Below, piece after piece: positions 31,528 through 49,795 of a DNA stretch of 64,000 nucleotides. The position numbers were made by a program, and so were the translations under genes. This DNA comes from Acidobacteriota bacterium (GTDB lineage: Bacteria; Actinomycetota; Acidimicrobiia; Acidimicrobiales; RAAP-2): the NCBI GenBank assembly GCA_028873575.1, contig JAGWHY010000004.1, positions 1 through 64,000 on the forward strand. Direction: 5' to 3'. Below the pieces are notes generated by a model, which saw only the letters and a program-made list of their open reading frames with translations, searched no databases and had not been told where the DNA came from. Every line of letters begins with the position of its first letter. Positions within the stretch are counted from its first letter, which is position 1.

Positions 31528-32835
31528 GTGATTGACCTGGTCCAACTGCGCCGCGAACCCGACGAGATCAAGGCCGCCCTCGCGCGTCGGGGCGTCTCGA
31601 GCGCCACCATGGATGAGGTCATCGTGCTCGACGTCGAGCATCGACGCCTGCTCCAAGAGGCGGAGAGCCTGCGCGCCGAGATTAAGGATCTCTCGCGACA
31701 GGTGGGTGAGGCCCGTCGTGACCAGGACACGGCCCGGGCGGAGAGTTTGACGGCGCGCTCGCGCGCCCTCGGTGACGAAGAGCGCGCCGCGCGCGAGGCC
31801 ACTGACCGCGTCGCCGCGTCGCTGCGCGAGTCGTTGTTGATGATTCCTAACGTGCCCGCGGACGACGTACCCGAGGGCCTCGACGAGAACGACAACGTGG
31901 AGATCGACCGGTGGTGGGTCGGCAAGGAGGAGGGACAACCCTTCCCCGAGTACGCGCCGCATCAGCGCGTGGCGCACTGGGACGTCGGTAAAGAACTCGG
32001 CATCTTGGACCTCGAGGCGGGGGCGCGTCTCGCCGGATCGATGTTCCCGCTGTATCGCGGCGCGGGGGCTCGGTTACTTCGCGCGCTGGGGGCCTTCGCG
32101 CTCGACGCGCACCTCGACGACTACGAGGAGATTCGACCCCCGAGCTTCGCCCTGACCGAAACCATGACCTCGACCGGACACCTACCGAAGTCCCAAGACG
32201 ACATGTACGCGATTCCGCGCGACGACCTCTGGGCCATTCCGACGGCCGAGGTGCCCCTCACCTCGATGCACCGAGGCGAAATTTTGGACGAGTCGCGTCT
32301 GCCCATTCGTCTCACCGCTCAAACGGCCTGCTTTCGTCGCGAGGCCGGCGCCGCGGGGCGCGACACGCGCGGACTCCTGCGCGTGCACGAGTTCGACAAA
32401 GTCGAGTTGTTCGCCTACTGCACGCCCGAGCAGGCCGACGCGGCCCACGCCGACATCCTGGCGCGCGCGGAGGGACTCCTGCGTTCGCTGGGACTGACCT
32501 ATCGACTCTTGCGGCTGTGCACGGGTGATCTGGGATCGTCCTCGGCGCGGACCATTGACCTCGAGGTCTTTAGCCCCGGGGTCGACCGCTGGCTTGAGGT
32601 GTCATCCGTGTCGTGGTTCCGGGACTATCAAGCCCGCCGGGCCAACGTGCGCTACCGCCGCGCTGACGGCACGACGGCCCTCGTGCACACGGTGAACGGT
32701 TCGGCGCTCGCCTGGGCGCGTATTTGGGCGGCGCTCGTGGAGACCTATCGCCAGAGTGACGGCACGGTCCAGCTTCCCGACGTGTTGAGTCCGTACCTCG
32801 GTGGCCGCACGCGCCTTACGCCGAAGGTTTCGTGA
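31528..32835 (+). CDS. serS: Seryl-tRNA synthetase
   Basis: A 435-residue class II synthetase charging tRNA-Ser and tRNA-Sec-type substrates. The N-terminal coiled-coil arm (residues 28-105) is followed by motif 2 (TACFRREAGAAGRDTRGLLR) and motif 3 (NGSALAWARIWAALVE). Full length and start (GTG, DLVQLRREPDEIKAAL) match the family. Its 3' end overlaps the convergent regX3 gene by 20 nt. Two tRNA-Ser genes lie in the same window. Confidence 0.97.
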   Translation: MIDLVQLRREPDEIKAALARRGVSSATMDEVIVLDVEHRRLLQEAESLRAEIKDLSRQVGEARRDQDTARAESLTARSRALGDEERAAREATDRVAASLRESLLMIPNVPADDVPEGLDENDNVEIDRWWVGKEEGQPFPEYAPHQRVAHWDVGKELGILDLEAGARLAGSMFPLYRGAGARLLRALGAFALDAHLDDYEEIRPPSFALTETMTSTGHLPKSQDDMYAIPRDDLWAIPTAEVPLTSMHRGEILDESRLPIRLTAQTACFRREAGAAGRDTRGLLRVHEFDKVELFAYCTPEQADAAHADILARAEGLLRSLGLTYRLLRLCTGDLGSSSARTIDLEVFSPGVDRWLEVSSVSWFRDYQARRANVRYRRADGTTALVHTVNGSALAWARIWAALVETYRQSDGTVQLPDVLSPYLGGRTRLTPKVS

Positions 32836-33541
32836 CCTCGAAGCGGTAACCAACCCCGCGCACCGTGGAGATGAGTTCGGGTTTTTTGGGGTCTTCTTCG
32901 ATCAGTGAGCGCAGGCGTTTGATGTGCACGTCGAGGGTCTTCGTGTCACCGACGTAGTCACTACCCCAGACGCGGTCAATGAGGACGTCGCGCGTCAAGA
33001 CCCGACCGGGATTTTCGAGCAACAGTCGTAGCAGCGCGAACTCCTTCTTGCGTAGCTTCACTTCAACGTCGTTCACGAAGCAGCGCCGCGCGTCGAGTTC
33101 CATGCGTAAGGAACCAAAAGCCAAGACGTCACTTTCTTCGTAGGCGGCGGGCGATTCACGTCGACGCAGGACCGCGCGGATGCGCGCGACGAGTTCGCGC
33201 AGGCGGTAGGGCTTAGTCACGTAGTCGTCGGCGCCGACCTCGAGCATCAACACCATGTCGACCTCTTCGCCCTTGGCGCTCACGATGATGATCGGCACGT
33301 CACTGGCGGCCCGTACGGAGCGACAGACGTCGAGCCCCGACAACTTGGGCAGCATCAGGTCCAACAAAATGACGTCGAAGCGGCCCTCTTCGAACATCGC
33401 GAGCGCCTCTTGGCCGTCGCGCGCGATCGTGGCGTCAAATCCCTCGCGGTCGAGCCCGATCGTCAAGGCTTCGATGAACGACTCTTCGTCCTCGACGACC
33501 AGCACTCGAGTGCGACGCTCGTGCGATTTGGACTTGCTCAC
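32816..33541 (-). CDS. regX3: OmpR-family response regulator (RegX3-like)
   Basis: A 241-residue regulator with a receiver (E17/D18/E19, phosphoacceptor D61 in ILLDLMLPKLSG, K in VSAKGEEVD) and a winged-helix DNA-binding domain (KLRKKEFALLRLLLENPGRVLTRDVLIDRVWG, GVGYRFE). It is the partner of the kinase directly upstream, with a 4-nt GTGA overlap. SenX3-RegX3 and PhoR-PhoP pairs control phosphate starvation in actinobacteria, and a PHO-box-like array lies at 45533. The symbol follows the gene arrangement and similarity; MtrA-like identity is less likely. Confidence 0.82.
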   Translation of the reverse strand: MSKSKSHERRTRVLVVEDEESFIEALTIGLDREGFDATIARDGQEALAMFEEGRFDVILLDLMLPKLSGLDVCRSVRAASDVPIIIVSAKGEEVDMVLMLEVGADDYVTKPYRLRELVARIRAVLRRRESPAAYEESDVLAFGSLRMELDARRCFVNDVEVKLRKKEFALLRLLLENPGRVLTRDVLIDRVWGSDYVGDTKTLDVHIKRLRSLIEEDPKKPELISTVRGVGYRFEVTKPSA

Positions 33542-34836
33542 AACTGGTTCGCCGGCAGTTCCAGGGTGAAGGTGGAGCCTTCGCCTTCGCGGGAGTCGAC
33601 GAGCACCGAGCCGCCGTGATTCTGGGCGACGTGGCGCACGATGGAGAGGCCGAGCCCGGTGCCCCCGGTCTCGCGCGCGCGACCCGGGTCAACGCGGTAG
33701 AAGCGTTCGAAGATGCGCTCTAAGTCCTTCGCGGGAATGCCGACGCCACGGTCGCGAATGCTCACGTGCACCCAAGGGCCGACGACGTCGCCCTCGTCGG
33801 TGGTGCTCGCGTCGACGCGCGTGATCTCGAGGTCGACGACGCCGTCGCGCGGCGAGTACACCACCGCGTTTTCGAGCAGGGCGTGCACGGCTGACGTCAA
33901 TTGGCGACGATCGCCGAACACGACGGGGTTGTCGAGTGGCTCTTCGAAGTGAACCTTGATGCCGTGTTGCTCGGCGGCCGTGCGAATGCGTTCAATCGCG
34001 TCGGCCACGATGAGCACGACGGAGACCGGTTCGCGACTCGGCGAACCTTGGCTCTCGATGCGCGAGAGATCGAGCAGGTCTTCGATGATGCGATTCACGC
34101 GAAAGGCTTCGGAGTTGATGCGCTCGGCCAGTCGCTGGGCCACGGTGGGGTCGCGTTCGAACTGGAGGGTTTCGGCCAGCAGGCCGAGCGCGCCCATGGG
34201 GGTCTTGAGCTCGTGCGAGACGTTGGCGATGAAGTCACGACGAATGTCTTCGAGGCGTCGACGTTCCGAGACGTCCTCAATAACCGCGAGCACGCCCAGT
34301 GATCGACGCCCGTCGTCGATGACGGTCGCGCGGATCGTCAGGGTTCGCCGCGGGGGGCCGTAGATGTCAATCGTGCGTTCGGCGACGCCCTGGTGCCAAC
34401 TCTCGGCGAGCACCTCGGTCACGGCCTGGGCCGCAATGGCCTCGCCGTAGCGACTGGCCATGAGCTGCTCGGCTTGGTGGTTGCGGAACAAGACCGCCCC
34501 GCTCTCGTCGCAGAGTACGAGCCCGAGGGGCAGCGAGTCGAGGGAACGCCGGAGTCGCACGGACTCGGCGCTGGACTCACTGACCGCGGTCGTGGCGGCG
34601 CTCGTGACCTCCTCGAGGTAGTTCAACGCGGCCTCAACTTTGCCACGGTCGTCGTGGGGTTCGGCCCCCAAGCGTGAGCCGAGCGCGGTGAGGCGCTGGG
34701 CAATGGCGCGATGACCGCGCCGGCGATAGAACAACATGCCCAAGAGGCCGCCGACGAGCAACACGCCCGCGCCGGCGACGTAGATCAGCGTCGGTGGCCA
34801 GTGAGACGCGAAATTTTTACCGAGGGCCAGGAGCAC
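33538..34836 (-). CDS. senX3: SenX3-like sensor histidine kinase
   Basis: A 432-residue kinase with one N-terminal membrane segment (IYVAGAGVLLVGGLLGMLFYRRR), a PAS-like sensor domain (LDSLPLGLVLCDESGAVLFRNHQAEQL), a HisKA domain with FIANVSHELKTPMGALG and a HATPase domain (N box LLENAVVYSP, G boxes RDRGVGIP and GGTGLGLSIV). GTG 34836 was chosen because GAGAAT lies 6 nt upstream; TTG 34875 is the longest alternative. In mycobacteria SenX3 answers phosphate limitation. It is coupled to regX3 and divergent from the secretion operon at 34914. Confidence 0.85.
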   Translation of the reverse strand: MLLALGKNFASHWPPTLIYVAGAGVLLVGGLLGMLFYRRRGHRAIAQRLTALGSRLGAEPHDDRGKVEAALNYLEEVTSAATTAVSESSAESVRLRRSLDSLPLGLVLCDESGAVLFRNHQAEQLMASRYGEAIAAQAVTEVLAESWHQGVAERTIDIYGPPRRTLTIRATVIDDGRRSLGVLAVIEDVSERRRLEDIRRDFIANVSHELKTPMGALGLLAETLQFERDPTVAQRLAERINSEAFRVNRIIEDLLDLSRIESQGSPSREPVSVVLIVADAIERIRTAAEQHGIKVHFEEPLDNPVVFGDRRQLTSAVHALLENAVVYSPRDGVVDLEITRVDASTTDEGDVVGPWVHVSIRDRGVGIPAKDLERIFERFYRVDPGRARETGGTGLGLSIVRHVAQNHGGSVLVDSREGEGSTFTLELPANQL

Positions 34837-34842
34837 GGCTCC

Positions 34843-34848
34843 ATTCTC
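34843..34848 (-). promoter_or_regulatory. -10 element of senX3
   Basis: GAGAAT lies 6 nt before GTG 34836 on the minus strand. It keeps the A2/T6 pattern of this genome's leaderless promoters. A single GTTCACA lies further upstream at 34884-34890, too little to call a PHO box. Confidence 0.35.
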
Positions 34849-34913
34849 GCAGACTCCCTTCACCGGCGCGCGCAAGCGACCGTTGTGAACTCCCTTAGAG
34901 AGAGTGGGTTCCC

Positions 34914-43985: not shown

Positions 43986-45434
43986 TTAGTGGGTTAACTC
44001 ATCGCTCGGCCGTGGCGGCGTGACGACGTGGCTCGACGAGGGTTCGACGAGCAGTGGCGCCTCAAAGATTTCCGCCGACGCCTCTTCCAAGGTCTGTCCC
44101 ATGGGCTCGGGCAGGGCCAATCTGGTCAAGATCGCGCCCACGATGGACACGCTGGCCATGACCGCCATCACGCCACGTACGCCCATGCTGTTCAAGAGAT
44201 GGGGAACGAACAGGGCGCCGAGAAACGCCCCAAATTTGCCCGCCGCGGCGGAGATTCCGTCACCCGCACCACGAATGGCGGTGGGGAACACTTCCGAGGG
44301 GTAGACGAAGGTCGTCATGTTGGGGCCAAACTCGACGAAGAAGTAGCTAAAGCCAAAGAGCGTGAGGAAGACCCAGACTTTTTCGGTCACGCCTGGCACC
44401 AAGGCGATGACGAAATAGGCGGCGGTCATCATCAAGAAGCCCTGAATTTGTATACGACGTCGACCCAGTTTGTCGAGTAACGCGACCGCGACCCAGTAAC
44501 CAGGTAGCGCGCACACCGTGAAGATCGCGAGTGAGATCAGCGTGTGGTTCAACAGCGTGCCGTTGGGTTGGAGCGTTTTGAGAATCAACGGGCTCGAGAC
44601 GGAGTTGCCGTAGTACGCGATATCGAGCAAGAACCACGCGCCGGCGGTGCCAATGAGTCGCTTGAGGAAGGGCTTCGACGTGAGGCGGGCGCGGGCGGAC
44701 GCGCGCGGAGTGACGACGACCGGGCGGGTCGACGCGTCGTCGCCCAGCGTCCAGCGCAGCGTCTCGGCCGTAGTCTCGCCGTCGCCCTTCACCGCCAGTG
44801 TGAATCGCGGTGTTTCACGAATTTTGCGTCGTAGGTAAATCACCGAAGCGGCCGGCACGGCGCCCAGAGCCAACATGAGACGCCAGGCGACCCCGTTGCT
44901 GACGCCCGTCGCGAGGAAGATTGACGCGATGAGTGGCCCCGCGAGGAGGCCAAAGCCCTGCATCGCGAACACGGTGCCAATGAGGCGGCCGCGCGAACGG
45001 CGGTTCGCGTACTCCGCGGTGATGACCGCCGAGGTGGCGTAGTCCCCGCCGACGCCCAGTCCCACCAACACGCGAAAGATCATGAGCGACGTGAAGTTCC
45101 ACGACAGGGCGGACAGAAGCGCGCCTACGACAAGAATGGTGACCTCAACGCCGTACATGCGCTTGCGGCCCAAGCGGTCCATCAACTTGCCGAACGTGAT
45201 GGCCCCGACCACGGAGGCCAAGAGCGAGATTGAATTCAGTAGAGAGATTTGATTCGTCGAGAGATTAAAAATGGGCGTCAAGATCACCGTGACGGTACCG
45301 ATAATGAAGAGGTCGTAGGCGTCGGTGAAAAAGCCCATCCCCGCCGTGAACACCGTGAGCCAGTGTTTGCGGTTGAGGGAGGCTTCGTTGAGCGCGTGGT
45401 AGGCGTCGGGGCTCTGTGGGCCAGCGTTCGTCAC
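43986..45434 (-). CDS. MFS transporter, phosphate:H+ symporter (PHS)-like
   Basis: A 482-residue, 12-helix permease. GMGFFTDAYDLFIIGTV in helix 1 and GLGVGGDYATSAVITAEYA in helix 4 are characteristic of the PHS inorganic-phosphate branch of the sugar-porter group, and GKLMDRLGRKRMYG is the MFS loop motif. The central cytosolic loop is about 60 residues. AGGGAGAG lies before the GTG. A PHO-box-like array at 45533-45572, 99 nt upstream, supports phosphate as the substrate. Related branches carry aromatic acids or sialate, so the assignment is likely but not proven. Confidence 0.78.
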   Translation of the reverse strand: MTNAGPQSPDAYHALNEASLNRKHWLTVFTAGMGFFTDAYDLFIIGTVTVILTPIFNLSTNQISLLNSISLLASVVGAITFGKLMDRLGRKRMYGVEVTILVVGALLSALSWNFTSLMIFRVLVGLGVGGDYATSAVITAEYANRRSRGRLIGTVFAMQGFGLLAGPLIASIFLATGVSNGVAWRLMLALGAVPAASVIYLRRKIRETPRFTLAVKGDGETTAETLRWTLGDDASTRPVVVTPRASARARLTSKPFLKRLIGTAGAWFLLDIAYYGNSVSSPLILKTLQPNGTLLNHTLISLAIFTVCALPGYWVAVALLDKLGRRRIQIQGFLMMTAAYFVIALVPGVTEKVWVFLTLFGFSYFFVEFGPNMTTFVYPSEVFPTAIRGAGDGISAAAGKFGAFLGALFVPHLLNSMGVRGVMAVMASVSIVGAILTRLALPEPMGQTLEEASAEIFEAPLLVEPSSSHVVTPPRPSDELTH

Positions 45435-45532: not shown

Positions 45533-45572
45533 AGTGAAGCCAGCGCGAACGTTACGTGAACATTTGGTGAAC
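45533..45572 (-). promoter_or_regulatory. PHO-box-like array of 11-nt direct repeats
   Basis: Reading the minus strand towards the MFS gene, four 7-mers occur at strict 11-nt spacing: GTTCACC (45566-45572), GTTCACG (45555-45561), GTTCGCG (45544-45550) and CTTCACT (45533-45539). This matches the layout of Streptomyces PHO boxes, 11-nt direct repeat units with GTTCACC, bound by OmpR-family PhoP/RegX3 regulators. It lies 99 nt before the MFS start codon. Confidence 0.75.
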
Positions 45573-45796: not shown

Positions 45797-46993
45797 ATGA
45801 AGATTCTCGTTCTGGGTGGCGACGGATTTTGCGGCTGGCCGACGTCGCTGCACCTCTCCGATCAAGGGCACGAGATCACGATCGTCGACAACTTGAGCCG
45901 TCGTGAAATTGACCTGGAACTCGAGGTGGAGTCCCTGACCCCGATTCGCCCGATGGGCGAACGTCTCCGGGTCTGGAAGGAACTGACGGGCAACGAAATT
46001 CGCTTCGTGCACCTGGACTTGGCCGAAGAGTACGACCGGCTTGAGGCACTGATTGCCGAGACCGCGCCCGACGCCATCGTGCACTTCGGCGAACAGCGCG
46101 CCGCGCCGTACTCCATGCGCTCGACGGCGGCCAAGCGCTACACCGTCGACAACAACGTGCGTGGCACGCACAACGTCCTGGCGGCAATCGTCGCGACCGG
46201 CCTCGACGTCGCGCTGGTGCACTTAGGGACGATGGGCGTCTACGGCTACGGCTGGTCGGGCTCGGCGCCAATCCCCGAGGGCTACTTGACCGTGAAGGTC
46301 CCCACCCCCGACGGCGACATTGACCGAGAGATCTTGCACCCGGCGAACCCTGGGTCGGTGTACCACATGACCAAGACGCTCGACCAGTTGCTCTTCGCCT
46401 TTTACGCGAAGAACGACGGACTGCGCATCTCCGACCTGCACCAGGGCATTGTTTGGGGAACCCAGACGCCCCAAACGGTCCTCGACGAACGACTCATCAA
46501 CCGCTTCGACTACGACGGTGACTACGGCACCGTGTTGAATCGCTTCTTGATGCAGGCGGCGATTGGTCACCCCCTCACGGTGCACGGCACGGGTGGTCAG
46601 ACGCGCGCGTTCATTCACATCCGCGACACCGTGCGCTGCATTCAAATTGCGCTGGAGAATCCGCCGGCCGCCGGCGATCAGGTGAAGGTCTTCAACCAGG
46701 TCACCGAGACGCACCGCGTCGCGGAACTGGCCGAGATGATTTCTAAGTTGACGGGCGTCGAGGTGGCGTACCTGCCCAACCCGCGCAAGGAGGCCGCTGA
46801 GAACGAGCTCAACGTTGATCGAGAAAAGTTCTTGGAGTTGGGCCTCAACCCCACGCGACTTTCCGAAGGACTGCTCGAAGAATCTCGCGACGTCGCCGTG
46901 AAGTATCGCGACCGCGCCGACACCACGAAGATCATCGCTCGCTCCACCTGGCGCAAGGGCATGGAAGTCTCGCCCGACCTCGTCAAGGAGTAA
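45797..46993 (+). CDS. sqdB: UDP-sulfoquinovose synthase (SqdB/SQD1-like)
   Basis: A 398-residue extended SDR that makes UDP-sulfoquinovose from UDP-glucose and sulfite, the head-group donor of sulfolipid SQDG. It follows SQD1 closely: GGDGFCGWPTSLHLS at the NAD site, ESLTPI, VHFGEQRAAPYSM, catalytic T145 (LGTMGVYG) and Y189-x3-K193 (YHMTK), then GHPLTVHGTGGQTRAFIHIRDT. AGGAG precedes the ATG. No SQDG synthase gene (sqdX/sqdD) is adjacent. It is divergent from the phosphate-transporter candidate, as expected if both serve phosphate limitation; use in glycan sulfonation (Agl3-like) is an alternative. Confidence 0.92.
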   Translation: MKILVLGGDGFCGWPTSLHLSDQGHEITIVDNLSRREIDLELEVESLTPIRPMGERLRVWKELTGNEIRFVHLDLAEEYDRLEALIAETAPDAIVHFGEQRAAPYSMRSTAAKRYTVDNNVRGTHNVLAAIVATGLDVALVHLGTMGVYGYGWSGSAPIPEGYLTVKVPTPDGDIDREILHPANPGSVYHMTKTLDQLLFAFYAKNDGLRISDLHQGIVWGTQTPQTVLDERLINRFDYDGDYGTVLNRFLMQAAIGHPLTVHGTGGQTRAFIHIRDTVRCIQIALENPPAAGDQVKVFNQVTETHRVAELAEMISKLTGVEVAYLPNPRKEAAENELNVDREKFLELGLNPTRLSEGLLEESRDVAVKYRDRADTTKIIARSTWRKGMEVSPDLVKE

Positions 46994-48763: not shown

Positions 48764-48845
48764 ACCCCAGGGTAACGAACAAACGCAGAATCGCCTCGCA
48801 TGGTGGGCGCCACGGGAGGCGTCGGGTAGGTGCGAAGATTGGCGC

Positions 48846-48989
48846 GTGACGCCTCTTCTGCTGTCGACCGTGGTGAACGTGCACCGCGGGGTGGCGTTGC
48901 CGGCGGCGCGCGTCATCGTCGTCGCCGTACCGGTCACGATTGGCTTTCTGTACTGGTACTTGATCGCGCGGCGTCGGGGCGGACGTTGA
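48846..48989 (+). CDS. Small single-pass membrane protein
   Basis: A 47-residue protein: a hydrophobic stretch (about residues 20-41, VRVIVVAVPVTIGFLYWYL-like) and a basic end (ARRRGGR). Its GTG start at 48846 has AAGATT a few bases upstream, and its TGA overlaps the next gene's TTG start, suggesting coupling to the DUF3445 gene. Too short for family assignment; accepted because of the coupling and topology. Confidence 0.45.
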   Translation: MTPLLLSTVVNVHRGVALPAARVIVVAVPVTIGFLYWYLIARRRGGR

Positions 48990-49795
48990 GTATTCCCTAC
49001 GTACCCCTCGACGGTCGCGATTGGCGATTCACGATGGGACTGCGTCCCCTCAACGTCGCGAAGTGGCTGGAGTTCGACGAGCACGTCGACGACGAACTGG
49101 CGCTAAAGACGCAACTGTTGCGCGAACGATACGACGACGTCGTCGCGACGCTGCCGGGTAGCGAGGAAGCCGCGGCGGAACTCGTGCGCGAACTTACGGC
49201 GAACCTTGAGTCGTACCATCCGACGCGCTCGCGCGCGATCAGCGACGAACACCCCATCGTCGCGGCCAGTCGACTCGTGCAAGAGGACCTGTGTCTCCTC
49301 GAGCGGCGCGACGCGTGGCGCTTAAGCGCGGCCTGCGTGTGCTTTCCTTCACGGTGGTCGCTGGCGAGCAAGCTGGGCGCGACGCTCGACGAGATTCACG
49401 GTCCCGTGCCCGGTTACGACGACGCGCTGGCCGGGCCGACGAACGCCTTTTTTGATCGACTCGGCGCCGAGCGATCGTACTGGCGACTGAACTGGACGTT
49501 GCTTGATTCGCCGGTGCTGCACCAACCACGTGGCGCGCGACGTCCGCCGAGCGGCGCGCTGTCGGACTGGTTCTTTCGCGTGGAGCGTCAAACGCTGCGA
49601 CGCTTGGCGCGCAGCGGGGCCGTCGTCTTTACGATTCGCACCTACGTCGCGCCGGCGACCACGCTGGTGCGCGAGCACCCGGACTTTGGCGAGCACCTGT
49701 GGCGCGCGCTGGCGTCGGCGCCACCCGCGGTGCAGGACTACAAGGGATGGCGAGGCGTCGCCGATCGACTCGCGGACGCGCTCAGGAGCGGATGA
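48986..49795 (+). CDS. DUF3445 protein (haem-dependent oxidative N-demethylase alpha-like)
   Basis: A 269-residue protein with all main DUF3445 blocks: FTMGLRPLNVAKWLEFDEH, then LVQEDLCLLERRDAWRLSAACVCFPSRWSLASKLG and IHGPVPGY, RSYWRLNWTLLD, and a closing FTIRTYVAPATTL. The family includes the alpha subunit of haem-dependent oxidative N-demethylase (dimethylamine monooxygenase). The partner subunits are not adjacent, so the activity is uncertain. The start is probably TTG 48986, overlapping the small membrane gene; ATG 49034 is possible. Its end overlaps the convergent acyl-CoA dehydrogenase gene by 14 nt. Confidence 0.83.
   Translation: MSIPYVPLDGRDWRFTMGLRPLNVAKWLEFDEHVDDELALKTQLLRERYDDVVATLPGSEEAAAELVRELTANLESYHPTRSRAISDEHPIVAASRLVQEDLCLLERRDAWRLSAACVCFPSRWSLASKLGATLDEIHGPVPGYDDALAGPTNAFFDRLGAERSYWRLNWTLLDSPVLHQPRGARRPPSGALSDWFFRVERQTLRRLARSGAVVFTIRTYVAPATTLVREHPDFGEHLWRALASAPPAVQDYKGWRGVADRLADALRSG

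Follow-up and report, generated by a model that had tools for sequence, protein, structure and literature searches.

The window analysed here, a stretch of 64,000 nucleotides, carries an array of short direct repeats resembling a PHO box between two divergent genes. The array lies on the minus strand at 45533-45572 and consists, read from 45572 to 45533, of the four 7-mers GTTCACC (45572-45566), GTTCACG (45561-45555), GTTCGCG (45550-45544), and CTTCACT (45539-45533), which are separated by aaat, taac, and ctgg and thus fall at a pitch of 11 nt. The end of the last unit is 99 nt from the GTG start codon, at 45434, of a minus-strand gene (43986-45434) that codes for a transporter of the MFS class and is the presumed target. 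An extra, weak unit (TGTTACG, 45517-45511, minus strand) stands in phase two steps further down, at a place where relatives often have a unit as well. An earlier description made from the letters of the window (the sequence-only reading) had reported four GTTCACC-related 7-mers at 11-nt spacing on the minus strand, followed after 99 nt by a PHS-like MFS gene, and this was exact. On the other side of the array, on the plus strand, is sqdB (45797-46993). The minus strand also carries, in one operon, genes for a RegX3-type response regulator of the OmpR family (32816-33541) and a histidine kinase resembling SenX3, PnpS, and PhoR (33538-34875).

The product of the presumed target gene is very probably a Pi:H+ symporter of the PHS/PHT1/Pho84 type, because an alignment shows it to be identical to the fungal symporter PiPT at 13 of the 13 residues assigned to the phosphate pocket and the proton path (PMC6761603). 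In the PDB, the best matches are to plant PHT1;11 and to PiPT. Among the NCBIfam models, that for phosphate:H+ symporters (TIGR00887) is best by far at 322.8 bits, which is short of the equivalog cut-off of 610.3 bits and leaves the equivalog name unwarranted. The protein thus resembles the PiPT/PHT1/Pho84 symporters (TC 2.A.1.9) in its near full-length alignment and in all of the phosphate and proton residues, but differs from them in being bacterial, short, and below that cut-off. The earlier naming of the gene as a PHS-type phosphate symporter is upheld, as a prediction, by these residues and by the best NCBIfam model. The divergent neighbour, which the earlier reading did not identify, codes for a UDP-sulfoquinovose synthase (SQD1/SqdB). 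It matches the SQD1 structure 1qrr over its full length (E = 5.5e-103, residues 2-387) and reaches 335.6 of the 575 bits of its NCBIfam equivalog cut-off.

When scored against four copies of GTTCACC, the array reaches 23/28, the maximum of the window on either strand, and the next unrelated site reaches 20. The highest score among 200 simulated windows (first-order Markov, with the same dinucleotide make-up) was 21/28. The whole genome of 1,796,465 bases was searched with a three-unit pattern, GTTCACN5GTTCACN5GTTCNC, rather than by a full matrix scan, and the array was the sole match with zero mismatches; by an arithmetic estimate, about 0.0002 matches to the 17 fixed bases would be expected by chance. 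Taken alone, one short motif in one genome could be a chance repeat. Among 150 genomes of the family, a symporter gene was detected in 81, and 87 upstream regions were scored. Of these 87 regions, 67 hold three units that together score at least 16/21 on the strand of the gene and at a pitch of 11, compared to a count of 0 or 1 at pitches of 8-10 and 12-15, none on the opposite strand at the same threshold, and an average of 0.07 after dinucleotide shuffling of these sequences. The conservation is not a product of redundancy, since some 50 arrays differ from one another. A chance repeat, given next to no probability, is already refuted because both strand and pitch are conserved, and the score above the simulated windows and the uniqueness in the genome also speak against it.

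The 50 non-redundant arrays give a unit consensus of GTTCACC-N4, with four free positions and 3 to 7 units in each array; some relatives carry units resembling GTAACC or GTTACC. No -10 element was found at a fixed distance downstream of the array among 52 sequences. The genomes are mostly draft assemblies with predicted start codons, and distances are approximate. With its four direct repeat units on one strand, its 7-nt core and four variable nucleotides at a pitch of 11 nt, and its position in phosphate-gene promoters, conserved in relatives, the array has the make-up of a PHO box, and the description of it as PHO-box-like holds, core and pitch alike matching the published boxes.

Other phosphate genes of the genome share the element in part. 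On another contig (C65), the genes run in the order pstB-pstS-pstC-pstA; a three-unit box scoring 17/21 lies 84 nt upstream of pstS, and pstB is preceded by a weaker box of 15/21. Both positions carry boxes in relatives as well. In the 1,500 nt before pstS, 10 of the 25 relatives scored carry an array that reaches 16/21 or more, and the opposite strand gives none. The regions upstream of phoU (about C46:74854-75522, on the contig of the window but outside it) and senX3 hold no box in this genome. The enrichment of the motif before phosphate genes, proposed earlier as a check, is thus seen for the pst and symporter genes (67/87) and fails for phoU. Within the genus, the symporter is present in 31 of the 32 genomes that have this PstS versus 12 of the 45 that do not (Fisher p = 1.5e-10). 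The gene order of the pst cluster, in which pstB and pstS each have a box, is itself unusual (L024:12468-16563).

The element is of a known kind, while its target and its lineage are new. The PHO box bound by PhoP in Streptomyces coelicolor is described as 11-nt direct repeat units with a GTTCACC core, several in tandem, standing before phosphate genes that include pstS (PMC4415409, PMC7866108). The array shares the core, the pitch, and the tandem units and differs in its predicted target, a PHS/PHT1-type symporter. The review of actinobacterial phosphate transport names Pst and Pit as universally conserved, and its available text gives no PHS-type symporter among the transporters (PMC7866108). 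In Microlunatus phosphovorus, the PolR site GTTCACnnnnnGTTCaC stands before pst and pit genes, and oxygen sensing has been proposed for PolS/PolR (PMC6754071); this site has the same core and pitch, but two units rather than four and another target transporter. In Mycobacterium smegmatis, RegX3 has the site GT/GTCAcc-n4-cG (Glover et al., cited in PMC7884335), with nearly the same core and pitch, and a RegX3 orthologue is present here; the difference is that the pst-linked regulators found in the comparison of this lineage belong to a second RegX3-like clade. A literature search, whose reach extended to few subscription papers, found no paper on the Pho regulon in Acidimicrobiia.

The array is highly likely to be a PHO box of the actinobacterial type, bringing the symporter gene (43986-45434) and pstBSCA into a phosphate-starvation regulon. 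It is read as a PHO box because it is unique in the genome, conserved in pitch and strand, and shared with pstS and pstB, and because its consensus equals the published core; what is directly established is the array with its strand and pitch, its conservation before the symporter, the boxes upstream of the two pst genes, and the residues of the symporter. Binding by a regulator, activation, and a phosphate signal are what we infer from this. When phosphate is scarce, an OmpR-family regulator of the RegX3/PhoP group would be phosphorylated, bind the 11-nt units head to tail, and recruit RNA polymerase to the symporter promoter. Several points count against this explanation, namely the lack of a box before phoU and senX3-regX3, the score of only 13/21 before the gene of a second RegX3-like regulator (on contig C73, and called C73 here), the missing fixed -10 element, and the symporter score below the equivalog cut-off.

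Direct-repeat sites are common to OmpR-family regulators, of which this genome has at least eight, and the array could in principle be the site of another member, such as MtrA, GlnR, or the like, leaving the gene outside phosphate control. The GTAACC/GTTACC-like units of some relatives would fit this, but the consensus GTTCACC is the PHO core of the literature, and such an array also stands before pstS, pstB, and the pst-linked regulators, so this alternative appears quite improbable. Somewhat less remote, though still unlikely, is a role of the array in controlling (or also controlling) the divergent sulfolipid gene, which would connect a shortage of phosphate with the replacement of lipids. 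The lipid head group made by SqdB is free of phosphorus, and the array sits in the intergenic region common to both genes, at a distance of 225 nt from the sqdB start. However, the orientation of the array matches the symporter, and the symporter adjoins sqdB in no relative examined. With strand-aware scoring, none of the 58 sqdB upstream regions of relatives holds an array, and the array was rejected as a control element of sqdB on this count.

Which regulator reads the array is a separate matter, with two candidates. One is the RegX3-type regulator of the window, whose best PDB match is RegX3 itself (2oqr, 254 bits). The sequence-only reading had placed it 11 kb away; it is indeed encoded nearby, but its gene is 12 kb from the array, and the start of the senX3-regX3 operon 10.7 kb. 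The other is the C73 regulator, a RegX3-like response regulator (C73:49115-49822, L032:7113-7823, minus strand) with no adjoining kinase. It is possible, at rather less than even chance, that the window RegX3 and its SenX3-type kinase read the array, as in mycobacteria, and that the C73 paralogue does something else. The window RegX3 is, of all the regulators of the genome, the closest to RegX3 of M. tuberculosis (56% identity versus 51% for C73), its recognition-helix region LIDRVWG-DYVGDTKTLDVH-KRLRS is almost identical to that of mycobacterial RegX3, and its cognate PnpS/PhoR-like kinase adjoins the gene. Against it, almost every genome of the family encodes a RegX3 orthologue, even those that lack pst and the symporter and mostly have no arrays, so that the presence of RegX3 does not track arrays or Pho targets. 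Nor is the window RegX3 linked to pst or preceded by a PHO box of its own: senX3 in this genome has no box, and in 18 relatives the regions directly upstream of regX3 score 11-13/21 and hold no box.

The regulators beside pst belong to the other clade. In seven genomes from two other genera, a RegX3-like regulator gene is convergent to pstSCAB, and in six of six scored, an array of 16-17/21 lies upstream of the regulator gene (loci L350, L351, L353, L358, L359, and L360, in genomes G249, G219, G237, G278, G264, and G242, respectively), suggesting that these regulators are likely autoregulated. A maximum-likelihood tree groups them with the C73 clade (100/99), apart from the RegX3 clade (100/99), and several of the genomes with a pst-linked regulator also encode a RegX3-clade gene. 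The earlier proposal that RegX3 reads the array, chosen for its proximity, is not supported, on two counts, namely its presence in genomes without the targets and the membership of the pst-linked, box-preceded regulators in the other clade. Because its clade is pst-linked and PHO-box-preceded in other genera, the C73 regulator appears the better candidate and is somewhat favoured over the window RegX3; the support for it comes from linkage in other genera. If the C73 regulator were the reader, a kinase whose gene does not adjoin its own would have to phosphorylate it, and the SenX3-type kinase (33538-34875) may be the one. Co-occurrence was rejected as a means of choosing, as the C73 type and the RegX3 type are both nearly universal, also in genomes without pst and symporter. 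In four genomes of the same genus, a C73-type regulator lies 3-4 kb from the symporter; the arrangement is real, but the four are near-identical strains and represent one event. The gene of the C73 regulator itself adjoins genes for a bcp-type peroxiredoxin and pyruvate dehydrogenase, neighbours that recur in another genome (G337, L354).

The symporter of the window does not follow its genus. It clusters with the symporters of other genera (100/91), apart from those of its own, and the genes beyond sqdB are conserved. The symporter therefore seems to have arrived together with its promoter beside sqdB, suggesting horizontal acquisition; differential loss is the alternative. In its own genus, 33 of 77 genomes have neither the symporter nor this PstS. 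Downstream of sqdB, a block conserved in assemblies of Acidimicrobiaceae includes a gene (48830-49795) resembling HODM_asu, the alpha subunit of haem-dependent oxidative N-demethylase.

Taken more broadly, and with a probability we would put a little under even, this Acidimicrobiaceae-like lineage may have moved its phosphate control to a second RegX3 paralogue, which in this genome has no kinase beside it, with a eukaryote-like PHT1/Pho84-type symporter, moving between genera along with its PHO box, as the most strongly marked target. The GTTCACC-type PHO box, studied in Streptomyces, mycobacteria, and their kin, is now extended to a deep, uncultured actinobacterial family, and the predicted function of its target links it to a third type of phosphate importer, in addition to Pst and Pit. 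The setting apart of two RegX3-like regulators also matters for annotation, since in this group it may be a mistake to label any RegX3 as the regulator of phosphate genes.

A scan of the family with the three-unit pattern gave about 180 matches versus 19 for the reversed control (a hand tally), and many of these sit 100-200 nt upstream of a symporter gene. No clear further member of the regulon emerged from the matches; the other genes behind them, including MgtC, Bestrophin-like, HlyD-like, and GH26 genes, appear once each. The MgtC-family gene (L335:657-1439, G301:C10) has a five-unit PHO array directly upstream, in a genome that carries neither the symporter nor PstS.
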